Source: Rhodopirellula sp.
GTDB taxonomy: Bacteria; Planctomycetota; Planctomycetia; Pirellulales; Pirellulaceae
Assembly (NCBI GenBank): GCA_002690925.1
Contig: NZGD01000253.1
Location: 1 to 64,000, forward strand
Length of the DNA: 64,000 nt
Reading direction: 5' to 3'
Shown here: piece after piece, positions 46,349 to 56,503 of the stretch
Numbering within the stretch: the stretch's first letter is position 1
How the letters are laid out: each line of letters opens with the position of its first letter
Translations under genes and position numbers: made by a program
The notes under the pieces: model-generated
Databases searched by the model: none
The model's input: only the letters and a program-made list of their open reading frames with translations
What the model was told of the DNA's origin: nothing

Positions 46349-47119
46349 TTGAACTTAAAAGTCAACACAAACGAACTTCGCTCGGTTGACCGAGAACTCT
46401 TATCCGCCATGCGCGGCGGAGACGCCATGCGCAGGGGTGAGGCGTGGGGCGGTGGTGAGGCAAGTGGTGTCGGCGAGGCATGGGCAATTGGGGAGCTCAC
46501 AAAACTGCTAGGTGTGACTGCGACCGCGGTACGTCAGCGAATCGAAAGATTGCTGGAAATGGGCCTGATCGATCGAGAAAAAGTCGTCGCCGGCAGAGGA
46601 CGTCCAACGTTCCGATATCGATTGACTGTTACTGGTCATCGCGATGCGGGGGCGAATCCCGCCGATTTGGCTGATGCAATGTGGCGAGAAATTGTCGCAT
46701 TGGAAGACGAAAACACGCGAAAGAAACTCCTCTCTGCGGTGGCAGCACGCCTGGGGAAACAATTCGCGTTACAGCTCGGATCGGACCAAGCCGAGGGTAG
46801 CTTTCAGGAAAGAATGCGAAAACTCTCCGAGGCCATGTCAGCGCGTCAGATGGTCACTGAGGTAACGACCGCAGGCGACTTGCCAGTGCTGGACATTGGC
46901 ATGTGCCCTTTCCCAACCCTCACCGATGCGTCAGACGATCGCGAGATGTGCCGTCTTGAAGAGCAGATGATTTCTGAAGCTCTCGGACAGCCCGTTCACT
47001 TGAGCAGTTGTCGCCTTGATGGTGATGATTGTTGTCAGTTTTCTGCGGTTACCTTGGTATCCGATGCGGCCGTGTCAACGGAAACCGAGACTGGCACACC
47101 AGTCGCCAACGAGACCTGA
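46349..47119 (+). CDS. SufR-like iron-sulfur transcriptional regulator
   Basis: 256 residues from a TTG at 46349; ATG codons at 46409 and 46427 are alternatives. Residues ~25-45 are low in complexity (repeated G-E-A), then a winged helix begins: IGELTKLLGVTATAVRQRIERLLEMGLI and GRGRPTFRYRLT. The C-terminal half has cysteines spaced MCPF-x12-MCRLE, then SSCRLDGDDCC, as in SufR-type regulators that bind an Fe-S cluster and repress suf. It lies 210 bases upstream of sufC on the same strand, as sufR does in many genomes, so autoregulation of the operon is likely. Confidence 0.82.
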   Translation: MNLKVNTNELRSVDRELLSAMRGGDAMRRGEAWGGGEASGVGEAWAIGELTKLLGVTATAVRQRIERLLEMGLIDREKVVAGRGRPTFRYRLTVTGHRDAGANPADLADAMWREIVALEDENTRKKLLSAVAARLGKQFALQLGSDQAEGSFQERMRKLSEAMSARQMVTEVTTAGDLPVLDIGMCPFPTLTDASDDREMCRLEEQMISEALGQPVHLSSCRLDGDDCCQFSAVTLVSDAAVSTETETGTPVANET

Positions 47120-47330: not shown

Positions 47331-48146
47331 ATGACACACGTTCTCAAAATTGAAGACCTGCACGTTAACGTTGGCGAAAAGCCGATTTTGCGTGGAGTCA
47401 ATCTTACAATCAATCACGGCGAAACTCACGCATTGATGGGTCCCAACGGAAGCGGCAAAAGCACGCTTGGACTCGCCATCATGGGACACCCAGGTTATGA
47501 GGTAACCGGCGGTAAGATCTCGCTTGATGGGAGAGACGTGCTGGCAATGGAGCCCGATGAACGTGCTCGCGAGGGGATTTTCATGGCGTTCCAGCGGCCG
47601 ATGGCCATTCCGGGTGTGAAGATGGCTGATTTTCTGCGCCACGCGACGACCAATGTCCGCAGACCCGACCGCAAGGAAGGCGAGGAACTGATTCCGATGC
47701 GCGAGTTCCGAAAAGAACTGAAAGACAAGATGTCCCATCTCCGAATGGATGTCGAATTCGCCCGCCGCTATGTTAACGACGGCTTTTCTGGGGGCGAGAT
47801 GAAGCGAGCTGAGATTCTGCAACTTGCAATGTTGCAACCAAAATTCGCTCTGCTTGACGAAACAGACAGCGGACTCGACGCAGACGCAGTACGCCTTGCC
47901 AGCGAGTCAATCGCCGAGATCGGCCAAGGAAAAATGGGCCTCCTCATTATCACGCACCACGACAAACTTTTGGAACACAATCCACCGGAATTTACTCACG
48001 TGATGCTAGGTGGACGACTGGTTGAGACGGGAGGCCGTGAACTCGCAGATGAATTGCACGAGCACGGATATGACCGCATACGCAATGCGTATCCGGACGC
48101 AGAGGCGGCAAACCAGGAAATGCTTGCCGAAGAGGCGGCTGTCTAG
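47331..48146 (+). CDS. sufC: Fe-S cluster assembly ATPase SufC
   Basis: 271 residues. Cytoplasmic ABC-type ATPase of the SufBCD scaffold. Walker A GPNGSGKSTLG, the long SufC-specific Q-loop region EGIFMAFQRPMAIPGV, signature FSGGEMKRAEILQLAML, Walker B FALLDETDSGLDADA and the H-loop LLIITHHDKLLE are all intact. No membrane partner is expected; SufC works with SufB and SufD encoded just downstream. ATG at 47331. The order C-B-D differs from the E. coli A-B-C-D-S-E order but is common elsewhere. Confidence 0.97.
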   Translation: MTHVLKIEDLHVNVGEKPILRGVNLTINHGETHALMGPNGSGKSTLGLAIMGHPGYEVTGGKISLDGRDVLAMEPDERAREGIFMAFQRPMAIPGVKMADFLRHATTNVRRPDRKEGEELIPMREFRKELKDKMSHLRMDVEFARRYVNDGFSGGEMKRAEILQLAMLQPKFALLDETDSGLDADAVRLASESIAEIGQGKMGLLIITHHDKLLEHNPPEFTHVMLGGRLVETGGRELADELHEHGYDRIRNAYPDAEAANQEMLAEEAAV

Positions 48147-48203: not shown

Positions 48204-49610
48204 ATGGCAACTGACATCACTGAATCCGCAGAACTGGGCGAAATCAACAAGTACAATTTCCGCACCGAGACCACAGGTGTCTTCAAGGCGAAAAAAGGTA
48301 TCAATGCCGAAATTGTGAATCAGATTTCGGACATCAAAAACGAGCCGGACTGGATGCGAGAATTCCGGCTCAAATCATTGGAGATTTTTGAGTCACGCCC
48401 CATGCCAAAATGGGGTGGCGACATCGACATCGACTTTCAAGATATCTTTTACTATCTGAAGCCGACCAATGGCCAAGGTCGAACGTGGGATGACGTCCCG
48501 CAGGAGATCAAGGACACTTTCGACAAGCTTGGCATTCCTGAAGCAGAGAAAAAATTTCTCTCAGGCGTCAAAGCACAATTCGAAAGTGAAGTCATTTATG
48601 GATCACTTGAAGAAGATCTCGCGAAGCAGGGGGTCATTTTCACCGATACAGACACAGCAGTACGCGAACATCCGGAATTGCTACGAGAATACTTCGGCAA
48701 AATCATCCCACCGGAGGACAACAAGTTCGCTGCACTGAACAGCGCCGTCTGGTCAGGTGGTTCGTTCATCTACATCCCAAAAGGTGTTCATGTTGACTTC
48801 CCGCTGCAAGCATATTTCCGAATCAACGCGGAGAGCATGGGGCAATTTGAGCGGACGCTGATCATTGTCGACGAAGGTGCAAGCATTCACTACGTCGAAG
48901 GTTGCACTGCACCGATGTACTCCACCGAGAGTCTGCATAGTGCAGTGGTTGAGGTGATTGTCAAAAAGAATGCACGTTGCCGTTACACGACGATCCAGAA
49001 CTGGGCTAATAACATCTACAACCTCGTAACCAAAAGGGCGTACGCCTACGGCGACGCAACGATGGAGTGGGTTGATGGAAACTTGGGCAGCAAGCTGACC
49101 ATGAAGTACCCAGCGGTACATATGATGGAACCAGGTGCCCGGGGGGAAATTTTATCGATCGCGTTCTCCAGCGCGGGACAGCATCAAGACGCCGGTGCCA
49201 AACTTGTCCATGAAGCTCCGAACACAACGGGCCAAATCATTAGCAAGAGCATTAGCAAGAATGGAGGGCGAAGCAGTTATCGCGGTCTCGTCCGCGTCGA
49301 ACCCGGCGCCCACAACAGCAAGAACAATGTTGTTTGCGATGCACTGATTCTGGATCCGGAAAGCCGCAGCGACACTTATCCCTACATTGAAATCGCTGAA
49401 CAGGATGTCCAAATTGGACACGAGGCGAGTGTCTCCCGAATTGGTGAAGAACAAATGTTTTATCTCCTCAGTCGTGGGCTAACGGAACAGGAAGCAAGCA
49501 CTATGATCGTCAACGGATTCATCGAACCGTTGGTCAAAGAGTTGCCGATGGAGTACGCAATTGAAATGAATCGGTTGATTCAGTTGCAAATGGAAGGGAG
49601 CGTTGGCTAA
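48204..49610 (+). CDS. sufB: Fe-S cluster assembly scaffold SufB
   Basis: 468 residues, matching the usual ~470-480. The beta-helical core and C-terminal text are typical: [60 protein letters not shown], and near the end [21 protein letters not shown]. SufB accepts sulfur and builds the cluster on the SufBC2D complex. Starts 57 bases after sufC; followed by a 200-base gap before sufD. ATG at 48204. Confidence 0.97.
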
Positions 49611-49811: not shown

Positions 49812-51134
49812 ATGACACAAACAACTCTTACTACTTTTGACCAGGCCGGATTCGATGCATTCATTGAATCACGTGACGAGCCTGACTGGTTGCTGGCGAT
49901 GCGACGTGAAGCATGGCAACACGGGTCGGACATGCAGTGGCCCGAACGCCGCCATGAAGAGTGGATTCGCACCGACATTCGAGCGTTCCAGATTGGCAAA
50001 TACAGTGTGCCTACTGGGCCTGACCAAGACGAACCCGCGTTGGCAGACCACGAGCAGGTACACCAGTTGCTGCAAGACGTTGACCTTGCAGGACGCATAG
50101 AAACCGTAGACAGCAAGATAGTCGGGGAAAGCCTTGACGAGTCAGCAGCCGAACGTGGTGTTGTGTTCGGAAGCCTTTCGCGCCTGTGCAAGACGCATCC
50201 CGATTTGGTTCGCAAACACCTTTTCACTGCTTTCGACCCGGACGAGGATAAGTTTGCAGCGTTGCATGCTGCTTTCTGGTCGGGTGGCCAGATCCTGTAC
50301 GTCCCTCGCGGAGTGGTCTTGGACCGCCCCGTTCACATCGGATCGATTCTCTCCGAAGGCGGAACCGACACCACGCACACATTGATCATCCTGGAAGACG
50401 GTGCGGAAGCGACCGTGCTTCACGAAAGCAACGGTGCTTCGACTAACGCTTCGGGACTGCATTTGGGTGCTGTCGAACTGATTCAAAAGCCGGGCTCGCA
50501 TCTGAGGTATGTCAACCTGCAGGAGTGGGGGCACAAAACGTACAATTTCGCCCAGCAGAAAGCATCAGTTGATCGTGACGCAACGCTGCAATGGACACTG
50601 GCTGCCATGGGTTCCATGCTGTCCAAGGTCAATCAAACCGTCGACCTCGTTGGCCCGGGAGCGAACAGTCAAGTGAACGGTGTGATGTTCACTGAGGCAC
50701 GGCAACACATTGCCTACCACACGCTTCAGCATCACAAAGCACCAGGATGCCGGAGTGACTTCCTCTACAAAGCAGCCCAGCAGGATAAAAGCCGCACTGT
50801 TTGGCGGGGAATGATCAAGGTGGACAAGGAGGCACAAAAAACCGACGGCTACCAGCGAAACGACAACCTGGTACTCTCGAACACGTCGCGAGCAGATTCA
50901 ATTCCCGGACTTGAGATCGAGGCAGATGATGTTCGTTGCACTCACGGAAGCACGACGGCCAAAGTCGACGAAGAGCAGATTTTCTACGCTCGCTGTCGAG
51001 GCTTTACCCGGAAAGAAGCCACCCGAATGATCGTCAGTGGATTCTTCCAGCAGATTTTCGATCGAATTTCAATCGAAAGTGTTCGTGAAGCTCTCGCAGC
51101 GGCGATCGCTCGCCAAGTGCGCGAGTACGAATGA
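49812..51134 (+). CDS. sufD: Fe-S cluster assembly protein SufD
   Basis: 440 residues, paralogous to SufB but distinct: CTHGSTTAKVDEEQIFYARCRGFTRKEA carries the SufD-type histidine in CTHG, and GAEATVLHESNG, YVNLQEWGHKTYNFAQQ and DFLYKAAQQDKSRTVWRGMI are typical. SufD pairs with SufB and is needed for iron entry. The N-terminal ~110 residues are variable. ATG at 49812. Confidence 0.95.
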   Translation: MTQTTLTTFDQAGFDAFIESRDEPDWLLAMRREAWQHGSDMQWPERRHEEWIRTDIRAFQIGKYSVPTGPDQDEPALADHEQVHQLLQDVDLAGRIETVDSKIVGESLDESAAERGVVFGSLSRLCKTHPDLVRKHLFTAFDPDEDKFAALHAAFWSGGQILYVPRGVVLDRPVHIGSILSEGGTDTTHTLIILEDGAEATVLHESNGASTNASGLHLGAVELIQKPGSHLRYVNLQEWGHKTYNFAQQKASVDRDATLQWTLAAMGSMLSKVNQTVDLVGPGANSQVNGVMFTEARQHIAYHTLQHHKAPGCRSDFLYKAAQQDKSRTVWRGMIKVDKEAQKTDGYQRNDNLVLSNTSRADSIPGLEIEADDVRCTHGSTTAKVDEEQIFYARCRGFTRKEATRMIVSGFFQQIFDRISIESVREALAAAIARQVREYE

Positions 51135-51332
51135 TCTTTTTGAAAGTGGCAGAATCACGGTACCCCTTGGCGGATGAGTGTCGTGCGTTATGCCGAATGA
51201 ATGCGTCTGGCAGACCAAATGAGTGATGCCACGACGAGTGAAGCATTGACGTAAATGCGTTTCAGATAATGCAACGCAGTTCATTTTTCATCTCGAAAAA
51301 CCAACACAAACGATTCACAGGATGTCCGCACC

Positions 51333-51653
51333 ATGGCACTTGCAGAAGACACAGTTCGCGAAGCATTGAAACAAGTCATCGACCCCGAGCTCTATGTCAA
51401 CATCGTTGACCTGGGGCTGATCTATGTGGTCAGCATTGGCGAGGAAGATGCAGATGGCAAGCACGAGGTCAACATCGAGATGACGATGACCAGCCCTATG
51501 TGTCCCGCTGGTCCGCAGTTGGTTGCTGGCACCAAGGGCGCAGCGGAAGGCTTGGAGGAAGTCACCACCTGTGAAGTCAAGGTGGTGATGGAACCGGCAT
51601 GGTCGCCTGATCTGATGACCGATGAAGCTCGTGACCATCTCGGCATTTTCTAG
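51333..51653 (+). CDS. DUF59 / MIP18-family metal-sulfur assembly protein (SufT-like)
   Basis: 106 residues. The whole protein is one DUF59 domain: REALKQVIDPELYVNIVDLGLIYVV with the conserved DPE and DLGL, then MTMTSPMCPAG with the reactive cysteine, and AWSPDLMTDEARDHLGIF at the end. In this family SufT/PaaD-type proteins help mature Fe-S proteins. It lies last in the suf operon, about 200 bases after sufD. ATG at 51333. Confidence 0.93.
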   Translation: MALAEDTVREALKQVIDPELYVNIVDLGLIYVVSIGEEDADGKHEVNIEMTMTSPMCPAGPQLVAGTKGAAEGLEEVTTCEVKVVMEPAWSPDLMTDEARDHLGIF

Positions 51654-51831
51654 GATTTCCCAAAAAGCCAGCCTCCTTTTCCTATCCCCGAGCCTACCGA
51701 ATGCACCTCGGCCTGAATGAGTTTTCAGGCCCGCTTATCCTGCTGCATTCCAACGGGGCTTCCAGTTTTCGGTATCATGGGCACCGCGTGGTCCTCGTCT
51801 GCCCGATACCAGCCGTTCGGAGACACACAAC

Positions 51832-52860
51832 ATGCGAATTTTTGTCGGAGAGTATGTCTGCGGCGGTGGACTTGCTGATAAAGCGATCGACGAAATCCCC
51901 TCCAGCCTTCGGCGTGAGGGTGCGGCGATGCTGCAGTCCATCGTCTCTGACCTTGCGGAGGTCGCCGAAACAGTCGTCCCTCTGGACCCTCGCTTTGCAG
52001 GCACTTTTTTCAGCAACACCACCGACACGGTCAACATCGAGCGTGACCAGTCGCTCTGGGGGCAATGGGTAGCAGCAGCACAAACATGTGACGCCGCTTT
52101 GCTTGTCGCTCCTGAAAGCGACGGCATTCTCGCCCAAGCAGTCGCCATGCTACGGGCCAGTGGCATCGATGTCATCGCCGGAAGCGGCGATTTTCTGCGC
52201 ACAGCAAGTGACAAACACCTCACTGCAAAAATCCTGCACACTGCTGGTGTTTCTCACCCACCCTACATGACGCTGACAGACCGCCGCATGGAGCAGGAAC
52301 TGCAAAGCTTCGAGAAGTTTGTCGTTAAACCACGTGACGGATGCGGAACCCAAGAAATCAGGATGTATGATTCTTTCGACAAAGCGTCCAACGACTTGAC
52401 CGAGGATGGAATCCTGCAAGCGTGGATACCAGGAAGGGCAATCTCGATCGCTTTGGTCGCCTCTGCGACCCAACATACGTTCCTGCCAGCCGTCTCGCAG
52501 CACCTCTCTGATTCCCATTGCGAGTATAGTGGTGGAATGGGGCCGTTGGATGACGATGCTCAACGTCGGGCCGCAGCCCTTGCATCTCGAGCCATCGTGG
52601 CCATGCCACCAACGGCGCGTGGTTTTGTTGGCTTGGACCTGCTGCTTGGAGAACGTCCGAGTGAAGACTGTGTGATCGAGATCAATCCTCGCCTGACCAC
52701 CTCCTACGTGGGCTTGCGTCGGATGATTAACGGAAACCTCGCAGCACGACTCTTTGATTTGGAAACTGGTCCCGTTTCCTGCTGCACCGCCGCCAATTCG
52801 GTGCGTTGGACTCCCGATGGAGACGTCTGGATCAATGACAAAGTGGTCGAAAGTGCGTGA
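51832..52860 (+). CDS. ATP-grasp ligase, MfnD-like (tyramine-glutamate ligase type)
   Basis: 342 residues. N-terminal MRIFVGEYVCGGGL, a central lobe with KFVVKPRDGCGTQEI (ATP-binding lysine) and the Mg-binding end CVIEINPRLTTSYVGLRR are features of the MfnD family, ATP-grasp enzymes that join glutamate to tyramine in methanofuran synthesis. The next two genes are MfnF-like and MfnE-like, which makes this assignment much stronger than it would be alone. Its start ATG is at 51832, 178 bases after the suf operon, and it overlaps the next gene by 4 bases (GTGA). Confidence 0.82.
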   Translation: MRIFVGEYVCGGGLADKAIDEIPSSLRREGAAMLQSIVSDLAEVAETVVPLDPRFAGTFFSNTTDTVNIERDQSLWGQWVAAAQTCDAALLVAPESDGILAQAVAMLRASGIDVIAGSGDFLRTASDKHLTAKILHTAGVSHPPYMTLTDRRMEQELQSFEKFVVKPRDGCGTQEIRMYDSFDKASNDLTEDGILQAWIPGRAISIALVASATQHTFLPAVSQHLSDSHCEYSGGMGPLDDDAQRRAAALASRAIVAMPPTARGFVGLDLLLGERPSEDCVIEINPRLTTSYVGLRRMINGNLAARLFDLETGPVSCCTAANSVRWTPDGDVWINDKVVESA

Positions 52861-53903
52861 TACCTGACATGCAAAAGCTCGTTCTCGGAATGGACATTGG
52901 TGGCGCCAACCTCAAGTATGCCAGTTCATGCGGTACCGCCATAGCACGTGAATTTGCCATGTGGTTAACGCCCGAGCAGCTTTCACAGAGCCTGATCGAA
53001 GACATGCAAAAGCATTTTATCGATTGTGGCATCATGCCCGATGAATTGGCCGTCACCATGACGGGTGAACTGGCAGACTGTTTTCTCGACCGCAAAATAG
53101 GTGTTGAGCATATCGTCCAACAGACCTGCCATGCCGCCGAACAACTTAATGTCGAGAATGTGCGATTTTATGGAGTCGACGGCTGTTTTCATCAAGCAAA
53201 CCATGCCCGTGAAGATCCAGATCTGGTCGCGGCAGCCAATTGGCATGCACTCGCCAACTTCGTTGGCCGCGAAATCGCATCGGACGCCCTGCTGATTGAC
53301 ATCGGTTCAACCACAACTGACATCATTCCAATCAGTGAAAAAAAAGTTCTCACCGATGCACTCACGGACTACGACCGCCTGTGTGATGGATCCCTTGTTT
53401 ACATCGGTTGCAGACGGACTCCCGCCTGCGGACTTGTCAACAACCTCGAATACCAAGGCATCTCCACCCCGGTCATGAATGAGTTGTTCGCGACCATCGA
53501 TGATGCCATGCTAGTGCTCGGACACACCGTCGAAAATGTCAATGACTGCAACAGCGCCGATGGCAAACCAAGATCACGACCACTTGCAGCAAATCGACTT
53601 GCCAGAATGATCGGACTTGATCGCAGAAGCATCAACCTTGCTCAGGCAAAAAAGCTTGCTGAACAAATCATCGCTGCAGCAAACCAAAGAATTAGTCATG
53701 CCATCAACAAACATCAAAGGCACCCTGCCTGGGTGCTAAGTGGTCATGGCAAGGCGTTGGTTTCCATTCCCAATGGACAACCGACACTCCATCTTGCAGA
53801 TCACCTTGGGCCCGAAGTTGCTCGATGTGCGCCAGCCTATGCAGTGGCACGACTCAATTCCAACGAAAATCAGAGAGAACCTGACGATGCTGCGGGTCAT
53901 TAA
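52857..53903 (+). CDS. Hydantoinase/oxoprolinase-fold protein, MfnF-like
   Basis: 348 residues from a GTG at 52857; an ATG four codons later is possible. The ASKHA-type phosphate loop GMDIGGANLKYAS, second loop LLIDIGSTTTDIIPI, and YIGCRRTPACGL match the family whose archaeal member MfnF condenses the furan diphosphate with glutamyl-tyramine. NTP-binding C-terminal text VLSGHGKALV is present. Overlaps mfnD-like by 4 bases and mfnE-like by 17. The exact cofactor made in bacteria may differ from archaeal methanofuran. Confidence 0.82.
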   Translation: MIPDMQKLVLGMDIGGANLKYASSCGTAIAREFAMWLTPEQLSQSLIEDMQKHFIDCGIMPDELAVTMTGELADCFLDRKIGVEHIVQQTCHAAEQLNVENVRFYGVDGCFHQANHAREDPDLVAAANWHALANFVGREIASDALLIDIGSTTTDIIPISEKKVLTDALTDYDRLCDGSLVYIGCRRTPACGLVNNLEYQGISTPVMNELFATIDDAMLVLGHTVENVNDCNSADGKPRSRPLAANRLARMIGLDRRSINLAQAKKLAEQIIAAANQRISHAINKHQRHPAWVLSGHGKALVSIPNGQPTLHLADHLGPEVARCAPAYAVARLNSNENQREPDDAAGH

Positions 53904-54489
53904 GATAGGAGGAAGCATCCTGTTGCGTAACAATCTCGCAGCGACAGTCCACCAATGGCTGGATGCCCACCCCGCCGACGAGACGATGGTAATCATAGGG
54001 GGTGGCAAATTAATTGATGCAGTGCGTGAACTTGATCAACAACACACTATGTCCCCGCAACAGACGCACTGGATGTGTGTAGACTTACTGACAGCCACCG
54101 CCAGTTTTGCAGCAGAGATTTTTGGCTGGCCATTAGTCGCCACCGAGCAAGAGTGGAACGTGGCCATTGAGCAAAGCAAAACTCTCCCCAAACCGCATGG
54201 CCCCGCGGTGCCAACGGTGATCACACCGAACGTTTTCTACAACAGAAAGAATAGCAAAAACAAAAACATCTTAGACATGCGAGTTCCCAATGACTGGCGA
54301 ACCACAACCGACACGATTGCAGCTTTACTGGCACACCGGATTGATGCTGACGAATTGGTGTTACTGAAATCATGCCCAATTGTCTCAAAGATGTCCTTCA
54401 CAAAGCTTGCTGAGGCAGGGATCGTCGATGAGGCTTTCCCAGAAATCGCAACGGGCCTCAAAACGATCCGGGTTGAACAACTAAAGTGA
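53887..54489 (+). CDS. Amino acid kinase-fold protein, MfnE-like
   Basis: 200 residues from ATG at 53887, chosen because MLRVIKIGGSILL is the typical kinase start; the frame is open upstream inside the previous gene. Amino-acid-kinase features: KIGGSIL, MVIIGGGKLIDAVRELD and, before the end, DTIAALLAHRIDADELVLLKS. This short form corresponds to MfnE, which phosphorylates the aminomethylfuran phosphate in methanofuran synthesis. Last gene of the tightly overlapping trio. A 9-bp inverted repeat begins right at the stop codon. Confidence 0.8.
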   Translation: MLRVIKIGGSILLRNNLAATVHQWLDAHPADETMVIIGGGKLIDAVRELDQQHTMSPQQTHWMCVDLLTATASFAAEIFGWPLVATEQEWNVAIEQSKTLPKPHGPAVPTVITPNVFYNRKNSKNKNILDMRVPNDWRTTTDTIAALLAHRIDADELVLLKSCPIVSKMSFTKLAEAGIVDEAFPEIATGLKTIRVEQLK

Positions 54490-54679
54490 GTCGCCCACAG
54501 CAGCCGAATCAGCAGCGAATCCAACAACAAAACGCCTAATATCACCCGCGTGGGCGACCATGCATCTCTGGCTTTTGACGCCACGCTGCATTCATCATCA
54601 CCCGTAAGGGTTTGACCTTAAGCCGTCAACGTTGACCTGCGTTTGACCGCTTCGCCGCTCACCGCTGAGACTGCCTGCG

Positions 54680-56503
54680 TTACGGTTGATTGACGGCATC
54701 GCTTGGCGATGCTGATTGGCGTCGTTTATCCAGCAGGCGAGCCCGGAGCCGGTTCCCATGCTCCTGTGGATCACCATCGGTTTTGTAAAGCTTGATAGCT
54801 TCGTCAACCTGCCCGCTCTGTTCCAGACTTCGAGCGAGGTTATATCGTGCCGCGGCCACCCAAGGCGACAACACATCACCAGTCAATTCACGGCGAGAGA
54901 TCAACTCCGAATCAAGCACACGCTTTGCAAACCAAGTCTGCGCGGTTTCGTATCTCCCGTCGTCATATTGGATCAAACTGACCCAGTAGGTCGCAGCATT
55001 CTTCCCCATTCGCATCAAATCCTGAGCATAGCGGAGCTGCATTTCATATTGTTTCTCGTCCATTCCCAGTTCGCGGCGAACCCCGTAAGCCTTTTGCAAG
55101 TTGACGTCAATTCCGAGATCCTCAATTTCAAACTCGGGTGCGCGCTGCCGGAGGTAAAGCACTCTCGCCCCCTCAGCATCTTCCTCATCATTTTTATCGA
55201 ACTGCCCATGCAGATGTCGCCACCGAGCCAATGCCAATAATTTTGCATTGTCGGTCATATCTTCAATGATGGACCAGGAGGCTCGCGACCAGAACGTCAA
55301 AAGCGGATCACGCCCTGCCGCAGCCTTCAACTCGGCAGCATAGACCTCAGCGAGCACGGGAACATCCCAAAGCCGGACCCCTGCGATGCCCGGCACAGCA
55401 TCAATCTCGATTGCCAAGGCATCAACATCAACGAATGTTTTCATCCGACGCATACCGGTCAAACCTGACTCAAGTTGCTTCATTCGAAGACTGACTGCTT
55501 CTGGTGTCACATTCAGAAGAGCGATCGATTGCTGCACATCAGATTTCGACACTGGGTAGTCGAAATAGGAAACCACGTTCAAGCGTCGCAACACTGATGC
55601 GTCAGACCGCGCCTGACGCAACGTAGCAATTCCCTCCTGCCCCGGACCCGGTATGTAACAGCCAAGTTCAGGCTCAAACAGATAGACACTCTTACCTATC
55701 AATACACCAACACTCCACGGCGTAAGCGTTCCATCTTGCTCGGATTGGGTCGCCAAAACAAAAGCGGGAATGGAAGCCTGTCGACACAATTGAGTGAAAA
55801 CCCCGGCACGCTGCTGCGAATCACCGAGACCACGCCAAACAGTTTCGTAATCAGTCTGCCGATACCCCGGACCTTGAAACTGCATCCCCAATGAAAATTC
55901 TGGGATTGACATTCCACTGGGGAAAGGCGGATGTGGCAGCAAGCTTGTCTCAGGCTGCAGCGGCTCATACCCCACGTTCCTGACGGTCCAGTCGAACATT
56001 CGTACTGCTGTACGTAGTTTCACAACCTCCTCTTCGGGAAGTCTTGATTCGATTTCGTTCAACCAATCCTTCAACAAAGGATCCTCACCTGACTCACGAT
56101 CGATCCACTCAGAGATCTGGCGGAACAGATAGCAATCCCTCAGATAATCGGTATCAGAGCCAACGAACGACGCTTGCTCGGTCAACGCCCTAGCCTGCTC
56201 CTCGGGCATCACAGCACTGATTGTTTTGAGCAAGGGCGTGACTTTCTCATCACCGAATGTCTTGCTTTCACCCCAGCGATTCAGATGGTAGATCACCTCT
56301 CGTTGAGCTTCCTGCGGGTTCAGCTCAACGAGCCTCGTTAACAGGCTGTGGACCTCCCCCAGATGATCAACTGTAGTGTCGGCTTGGATTCGAGCCTGCC
56401 GCTGCCGCTCGATCGCCCGAACCTTAGCGGCATTATCACTACAACCAGCGGCCACCATCACAGCAGCTGAGAGTCCCAGTAGCAAGAATTTTCTGTGTGG
56501 CAT
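54680..56503 (-). CDS. Large lipoprotein with transglutaminase-like centre and C-terminal repeats
   Basis: 607 residues from ATG at 56501-56503, giving the lipoprotein signal MPHRKFLLLGLSAAVMVAAGC with a clean lipobox. Residues ~160-310 resemble a degraded transglutaminase-type fold: AVRMFDWTVRNVGYEP, then QQRAGVFTQLCRQASIPAFVLA, with the catalytic cysteine equivalent not convincing. The C-terminal 120 residues contain tetratricopeptide-like helices (NAATYWVSLIQYDDGRYETAQTW; AARYNLARSLEQSGQVDEAIKLYK). Location outer or inner membrane surface; function unknown. It reads away from kdsA, which lies upstream on the same strand. Confidence 0.75.
   Translation of the reverse strand: MPHRKFLLLGLSAAVMVAAGCSDNAAKVRAIERQRQARIQADTTVDHLGEVHSLLTRLVELNPQEAQREVIYHLNRWGESKTFGDEKVTPLLKTISAVMPEEQARALTEQASFVGSDTDYLRDCYLFRQISEWIDRESGEDPLLKDWLNEIESRLPEEEVVKLRTAVRMFDWTVRNVGYEPLQPETSLLPHPPFPSGMSIPEFSLGMQFQGPGYRQTDYETVWRGLGDSQQRAGVFTQLCRQASIPAFVLATQSEQDGTLTPWSVGVLIGKSVYLFEPELGCYIPGPGQEGIATLRQARSDASVLRRLNVVSYFDYPVSKSDVQQSIALLNVTPEAVSLRMKQLESGLTGMRRMKTFVDVDALAIEIDAVPGIAGVRLWDVPVLAEVYAAELKAAAGRDPLLTFWSRASWSIIEDMTDNAKLLALARWRHLHGQFDKNDEEDAEGARVLYLRQRAPEFEIEDLGIDVNLQKAYGVRRELGMDEKQYEMQLRYAQDLMRMGKNAATYWVSLIQYDDGRYETAQTWFAKRVLDSELISRRELTGDVLSPWVAAARYNLARSLEQSGQVDEAIKLYKTDGDPQEHGNRLRARLLDKRRQSASPSDAVNQP

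Follow-up and report, generated by a model that had tools for sequence, protein, structure and literature searches.

The stretch of DNA considered here (the window, 64,000 nucleotides) forms positions 1 to 64,000 of contig NZGD01000253.1 in a Rhodopirellula sp. assembly (GCA_002690925.1), and at 51832-54489 lie three genes whose products resemble enzymes of methanofuran synthesis. The source genome (G000) is a draft of 7.78 Mb in 314 contigs, with a completeness of 90.4% and a contamination of 7.84%. We call the organism Rhodopirellula-like because of its named relatives, the nearest of which, with 84% identity over MfnF, is a metagenome-assembled genome (MAG) that bears the label Rhodopirellula sp. 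The three genes, an ATP-grasp, a hydantoinase-fold and an amino-acid-kinase-fold gene in that order, are as follows:

51832-52860, + strand: mfnD-like gene for an ATP-grasp ligase of 342 amino acids (PF02655, 111 bits; PF18301; MfnD_Meth the best NCBIfam model)
52857-53903, + strand: mfnF, for a hydantoinase/oxoprolinase-fold condensing enzyme of 348 amino acids (TIGR03123; Protein Data Bank [PDB] entry 3c0b)
53887-54489, + strand: mfnE-like gene for an amino-acid-kinase-fold enzyme of 200 amino acids (PF00696, 41.8 bits; NF040622; predicted fold)

The gene trio

An earlier, sequence-only reading had picked out these genes, and they are real: there are three + strand frames, a strong family match for MfnF and a record of purifying selection (below). 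Its title gave the order correctly (D, F, E), although in its text the kinase precedes the hydantoinase. With 256.1 bits (E 4.8e-76), MfnF scores above the cut-off of 244.1 set for TIGR03123, "probable H4MPT-linked C1 transfer pathway protein", where H4MPT is tetrahydromethanopterin and C1 one-carbon. Because its score against the archaeal MfnF equivalog NF040623 is below the cut-off (177 bits; 520), we file it as a member of TIGR03123 and not as the archaeal equivalog. An archaeal protein of known structure (PDB 3c0b/3cet) matches residues 8-337 (E 6.5e-36).

For the kinase-fold protein, the best model is MfnE (NF040622), with 35.2 bits gained mostly over residues 3-69 and a cut-off of 300 that is not reached; pyrH_arch comes next (25.6 bits). 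Because this margin is thin, homologs, hhalign and the fold were used as further tests. All 25 planctomycete homologs given match the MfnE model (pyrH_arch matches 12 and argB 11), and hhalign against three proteobacterial MfnE proteins returns 99.9% (E 8.6e-33). The AlphaFold2 model is of high quality by its own scores (predicted local distance difference test 92.5, predicted template modeling [TM] score 0.90), and a Foldseek comparison (873 matches at an E limit of 10) puts 7qrh, MfnE of Methanococcus vannielii, first among the PDB entries (E 6.4e-9, TM 0.72/0.69), followed by an aspartate kinase (E 1.9e-6). Judged by sequence and predicted fold, the protein is MfnE-like and of a bacterial branch; by analogy, its probable role is the phosphorylation of aminomethylfuran-methyl phosphate, which yields the pyrophosphate.

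The ATP-grasp protein scores 70.9 bits with MfnD_Meth (NF040722), the best of 18 listed models (next 41.4). As the cut-off of 400 is not reached, we class it as MfnD-like only. By analogy with its characterized counterparts, it probably joins glutamate to tyrosine or tyramine.

Overlaps of 4 and 17 bases between the genes had been noted from the sequence, and both are present: the first (GTGA) when GTG 52857 is taken as the mfnF start, the second with the mfnE ATG at 53887, where homologs start too. An alternative mfnF start, ATG 52869, would give 344 amino acids instead of 348. Among five relatives, the mfnD/mfnF junction has the GTGA overlap in L001 and L003 and an ATGA overlap in L006; L004 and L005 have no overlap, with an ATG 8 bases past the mfnD stop. 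Measured against the nearest relative (L001), the ratio of nonsynonymous to synonymous substitution rates is 0.08 for the mfnD-like gene, 0.16 for mfnF and 0.27 for mfnE (0.024 for sufD), and all three genes are under purifying selection.

Gene order was surveyed at 45 loci of relatives, leaving out 11 further MfnF-bearing genomes of the genus-level group and counting genes as adjacent when no more than 500 bases separate the matched stretches. The mfnD and mfnF genes are adjacent in 34 loci, mfnF and mfnE in 36, and all three, as D-F-E, in 29. Elsewhere mfnD lies 5.8 kb from mfnF (G003) or downstream on the opposite strand (G023 and G055), and within the stretch examined none was seen in eight loci. 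The same trio, in the same order, occurs in three of the four proteobacterial plasmid regions opened (Aquabacterium, Azoarcus and Paraburkholderia); the fourth, from Azospirillum, has mfnF without the mfnD and mfnE neighbors.

The predicted cofactor

We are confident that the product of the trio is the core of methylofuran, as the form of methanofuran found in bacteria is called. The kinship, order, conservation and selection of the genes, and most of their partners, are direct observations; the individual reactions would be those of archaeal and proteobacterial work. The published scheme has MfnD build one half of the molecule, MfnE activate the other and MfnF join the two. The sequence-only reading had spoken of three consecutive steps, which is right as to the three methanofuran families and loose as to the steps, since the two halves are made and activated apart and only then joined. 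In the Rhodopirellula-like organism, the MfnD-like ligase would join L-glutamate to tyrosine or tyramine, MfnB (encoded elsewhere in the genome) and a transaminase would provide aminomethylfuran-methyl phosphate, and MfnE would convert this to the pyrophosphate. MfnF would then join the halves, with the phenol oxygen of glutamyl-tyrosine or glutamyl-tyramine taking the place of the pyrophosphate. Further glutamates would probably be added by MyfA-like and MyfB-like ligases. In H4MPT-linked formaldehyde oxidation, the finished cofactor would shuttle formyl groups between the formyltransferase FhcD and a formylmethanofuran dehydrogenase (FhcA with a probable-selenocysteine FhcB).

The proposal of a methanofuran-like carrier has gained support from profile, fold, tree and partner genes, and the three proteins fall in or nearest the methanofuran families, not in unrelated subfamilies. 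The accompanying suggestion of a side chain different from that of archaea agrees with the literature, in which the methylofuran of bacteria contains a polyglutamate chain together with tyrosine or tyramine (as described in the available parts of PMC8141765), and with the MyfA-like ligase gene of G000 and the MyfB-like gene beside mch in relatives. A polyglutamate chain in place of the archaeal side chains is likely.

Between a core that holds tyramine, as in archaeal methanofuran, and one that holds tyrosine, as in Methylorubrum, we see an even balance. Two G000 proteins exceed the Pfam cut-off for PF00282 decarboxylases and could be thought to supply tyramine. As MfnA they were rejected: at 127 and 97 bits they miss the cut-off of 299, and the first is instead a glutamate decarboxylase (645 bits against a cut-off of 380), the second PanP/diaminobutyrate-like. 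Because neither reaches the MfnA cut-off, a tyrosine core is indicated, and 8 of the 57 genomes with MfnF are without any match to PF00282. However, the ligase is MfnD-like, and among the strains treated in the available parts of PMC8141765 an MfnD paralog is found in five of six tyramine-type strains and is lacking from most tyrosine-type strains; moreover, three of those six tyramine-type strains have no MfnA homolog. The lack of a decarboxylase over the MfnA cut-off among the two favors tyrosine and the MfnD-like ligase favors tyramine, so we leave the core undecided.

The ATP-grasp could also be of the MyfA/OrfY type, adding a second glutamate and leaving the trio without the first ligation, although we consider this improbable. 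Methylotrophs carry MyfA (OrfY) and MyfB, some of them also an MfnD paralog, Orf1, and MyfA is partly similar to MfnD (PMC8141765, in the parts available), both being divergent ATP-grasps; in addition, the window protein and the OrfY-like protein of G000 have a common 121-residue stretch (28% identity). The proteobacterial plasmids help to separate the two kinds. An ATP-grasp gene lies directly before mfnF on those of Azoarcus, Aquabacterium and Paraburkholderia. Those of Azoarcus and Aquabacterium have another, flanked by mch on one side and the gene for methylene-H4MPT dehydrogenase on the other; from position, we infer that the former is Orf1 and the latter OrfY. In a set of 19 proteins, the window ATP-grasp matches the mfnF-adjacent ones with E values of 4e-22, 9e-22 and 1e-18, as against 5e-5 and 0.008 for the mch-adjacent ones. 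The two best of these matches span residues 1-309, and the Aquabacterium match is confined to 92-310. MfnD_Meth, which gives the window protein 70.9 bits, gives the two Azoarcus kinds 48.6 (mfnF-adjacent) and 19.6 (mch-adjacent). In a tree of 28 ATP-grasp proteins, the OrfY set separates with a support of 99/99, although long branches were flagged; the remainder is a partly open fork, compatible with kinship to the proteobacterial mfnF-adjacent proteins without resolving it. Finally, G000 has a separate OrfY/MyfA-like gene, divergent from fae on contig C272. On these comparisons the window ATP-grasp is of the mfnF-adjacent, MfnD-like kind, apart from the MyfA/OrfY kind.

Partner genes, mch and the client enzyme

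If the trio makes methylofuran, other genes of C1 transfer should be in the same genome, and most of them are: MfnB, FhcA, FhcB, FhcD and Fae are all present. MfnB is encoded on contig C58 (154.9 bits, over the Pfam cut-off) and FhcA on C180, beside FhcD (407 bits), FhcB (496 bits) and an FwdD-like protein (77.8 bits, cut-off 175). The genes fmdD-fmdB-fmdA stand in a row; FmdC was not identified in G000. There are two Fae-family proteins, at L198:5202-5699 (C272; 241 bits) and, weaker, at C29:19492-19986 (197 bits). Second Fae-family copies also occur in many relatives. Of the partners that the sequence-only reading had proposed to look for, mfnB, fhcA, fhcB, fhcD and fae were found and mch was not, probably owing to an assembly gap (see below).

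Across 60 genomes, MfnF is present in 57 (51 over the cut-off), Mch in 54, MfnB in 56, FhcA over the cut-off in 55 and Fae in 58; the MyfA query matches in 57 and the MyfB query, which also matches RimK paralogs, in 56. Two genomes, G052 (99% complete) and G053 (97%), are without MfnF, Mch, MfnB, Fae and OrfY, and their FhcA matches are weak and under the cut-off. Among the 50 genomes with a completeness of 90% or more and a contamination of 5% or less, presence or absence agrees with that of MfnF in 50 for Fae, 50 for OrfY, 49 for MfnB, 49 for FhcA and 48 for Mch (Fisher tests, p 0.0008-0.005, phylogeny ignored).

Several observations weigh against the methylofuran interpretation. The co-occurrence rests on two losses, there being only two high-quality genomes without MfnF. 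Conversely, some MfnF-bearing genomes are without a partner: Mch in G000, G008, G023 and G035, MfnB in G047 and G058, and FhcA over the cut-off in G010, G050 and G058. Some of these genomes, though not all, are clearly incomplete. The scores of the MfnD-like and MfnE-like proteins are far under the NCBIfam equivalog cut-offs (70.9 of 400 and 35.2 of 300), as are those of their Azoarcus counterparts (48.6 and 71.9 bits), and MfnB of G000 is under the NCBIfam cut-offs (93 of 304). In 11 of the 45 loci surveyed, mfnD does not adjoin mfnF. Lastly, mch was not found in G000, although 54 of the 60 genomes have it.

The absence of mch can be examined through a relative, G006, whose stretch L097 carries mch at about 8.2-9.1 kb and a MyfB-like gene next to it. 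The left end of L097 matches G000 contig C4 up to base 1 and the right end matches C274 from base 1. The mch-adjacent MyfB-like gene was not found in G000 either, the one match (C77) being at the level of the RimK paralogs of relatives. Based on the contig ends, mch and the MyfB-like gene were probably lost together in an assembly gap, which requires about 15 kb to be missing from G000. Against a gap, weaker matches from C160 (69-71%) cover parts of 12.8-15.5 kb on the right side, possibly a paralogous or contaminating stretch. An orphan trio, in a pathway without its mch center, was judged unlikely because the flanks of the mch region fall at contig ends. That the trio is a remnant, or serves some other cofactor without a link to C1 transfer, is very improbable: the missing Mch and the position of the C1 genes on several contigs apart from the trio would suit such an explanation, but the trio is under purifying selection, MfnF is found in 57 of 60 genomes and is lost in G052 and G053 along with Mch, MfnB, FhcA over the cut-off, Fae and OrfY, and both mch-region flanks lie at contig ends with the MyfB-like gene absent too.

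The enzyme that methylofuran would serve is probably a selenocysteine formylmethanofuran dehydrogenase, judging from the fhcB sequence. In G000 (L095:6132-7466 = C180:50131-51465), codon 116 is an in-frame TGA in the motif SHTSL-U-HGP, preceded by the N-terminal motif CTFCGCVCDD; UHxP is listed as a selenocysteine motif of formylmethanofuran dehydrogenase subunit B (in the part of PMC13188914 available). The in-frame TGA occurs in 23 of the 60 genomes, its position being identical in all 23 loci, and 22 of these genomes have SelB over the cut-off (G009 has only pieces below it); 13 others have SelB without the TGA. Stop-free FhcB has cysteine at this site in all seven loci fetched, with other stop-free matches (some in TGA-bearing genomes) outside that sample. 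Downstream of the TGA, CAGTTGGG is unchanged in 23 of 23 sequences, and a hairpin forms around it in 19 of 23 single folds, as a selenocysteine insertion sequence (SECIS) element would require. The genes selB-selA-selD stand in a row (L199:3890-9371; G000:C155), with SelD fused behind an oxidoreductase domain. Scans of three stretches close to selB, FhcB or fae, not of the entire genome, revealed no tRNA-Sec, and two of the stretches gave no Rfam match.

A selenocysteine FhcB is not new, because a selenocysteine fmdB was printed in 2016 for the Porphyra-associated Rhodopirellula P2 (PMC4807772, in the part available). As in that strain, FhcB/FmdB has the in-frame TGA and fmdD-fmdB-fmdA stand in a row, and the selB-selA-selD row recalls its operon-like arrangement; the distribution of the TGA (23 of 60 genomes, 22 with SelB over the cut-off) goes beyond it. 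The selenocysteine FhcB/FmdB also bears on the statement, in the available part of PMC5020050, that fwdD is not present in Planctomycetes.

Within the genus-level group (22 genomes), G000 and 14 others have the probable selenocysteine-type FhcB. Five members (G001, G003, G011, G018 and G021) keep MfnD, MfnF, MfnE and FhcA, with no such FhcB found and no SelB over the cut-off. Around fhcA in G003 and G001, there is no tblastn match (E up to 1) to the FhcB of G000 or Aquabacterium, and one open reading frame upstream of fhcA in each (L202 and L203) has no NCBIfam match; the other neighbors of fhcA we take, by resemblance, to be fhcD and fhcC. We tentatively suggest, at somewhat less than even chances, that one unchanged methylofuran pathway serves differing client enzymes within this group, the selenocysteine type being a [4Fe-4S], W/Mo-type formyl-methylofuran dehydrogenase. 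If so, planctomycetes would use methylofuran in redox chemistry, like archaea, and perhaps also for hydrolysis, like proteobacteria, and would offer a natural experiment on how the metal enzyme came to be abandoned in bacteria. The client enzyme is the more useful lead, as bacteria with the probable selenocysteine type beside close relatives without any found open the redox/hydrolytic switch to study.

Flanking genes and known systems

Upstream of the trio lie genes of iron-sulfur (Fe-S) assembly and a leader:

48204-49610, + strand: sufB (SUFBD_core, 292 bits)
49812-51134, + strand: sufD (SUFBD_core, 268 bits)
51333-51653, + strand: gene for a SufT-like FeS assembly protein (DUF59; PF01883, 55.4 bits)
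51654-51831, + strand: 178-base leader from sufT to mfnD (aligned with five relatives)

The order of sufB and sufD ahead of the trio is conserved among relatives, and 47331-48146 is presumably sufC, judging by its position. Ahead of the suf genes, a gene with weak winged-helix regulator matches (46349-47119) has the same place in many relatives. In the order survey, SufT is upstream of adjacent mfnD and mfnF in at least 23 of 45 loci, and within 1 kb in at least 19, both being lower bounds with several contigs ending near mfnD. The trio is found downstream of sufT, often of sufB/sufD too, across several families of the order (e.g., L001, L003-L008, L010). The SufT-like gene is probably a conserved upstream neighbor outside the methylofuran pathway, and we treat the linkage as inherited gene order. 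An Fe-S client enzyme was rejected as its cause, the linkage being kept in G001, G011, G018 and G021, where no Fe-S-type FhcB was found. A literature search on SufT with methanofuran gave no SufT among the matches listed, and we do not claim the linkage as unpublished.

The leader has a conserved block directly before the mfnD start and may hold its own promoter; no promoter-like site was found on the + strand of 51000-55000. A regulatory RNA in this gap was rejected (fold z-score -1.65, no Rfam match to the gap, no such site on the + strand). Downstream of the trio, on the opposite strand, are genes for a weak-TPR protein, a DAHP-synthase-I-family protein (which we label KdsA-like ourselves) and a YegS/diacylglycerol-kinase-like protein.

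The methylofuran pathway is already known in planctomycetes, and the trio adds a further genome. That planctomycetes carry C1 genes of this kind was correctly stated in the sequence-only reading, and is less surprising than held there: the H4MPT/methanofuran genes of Planctomycetes have been in print since 2004 (Chistoserdova 2004, as cited in the available part of PMC5020050). With that system the trio shares phylum and pathway, and we know of no essential difference to report. Archaeal MfnD, MfnE and MfnF (Methanocaldococcus; 7qrh) belong to the same three families, and the MfnE fold and MfnF sequence described here match archaeal structures; unlike the archaeal set, the planctomycete proteins score under the archaeal equivalog cut-offs, and none of the PF00282 proteins found exceeds the MfnA cut-off. 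In the proteobacterial "archaeal-like" cluster (PMC8141765, in the parts available), orf1 is the MfnD paralog, orf9 MfnF, orf21 MfnE and orf22 MfnB, along with myfA and myfB. The trio has the same order on the Aquabacterium, Azoarcus and Paraburkholderia plasmids, and G000 shares the MyfA-like gene, as relatives share the MyfB-like gene beside mch. In contrast, the planctomycete trio adjoins suf/sufT on a contig separate from fhc and fae, and identity to the proteobacterial homologs is about 25-37%. What emerges is a clear genomic case in which methylofuran synthesis is near-universal among the members sampled from one planctomycete order, the mfnD-like, mfnF and mfnE genes being arranged as in some proteobacteria.

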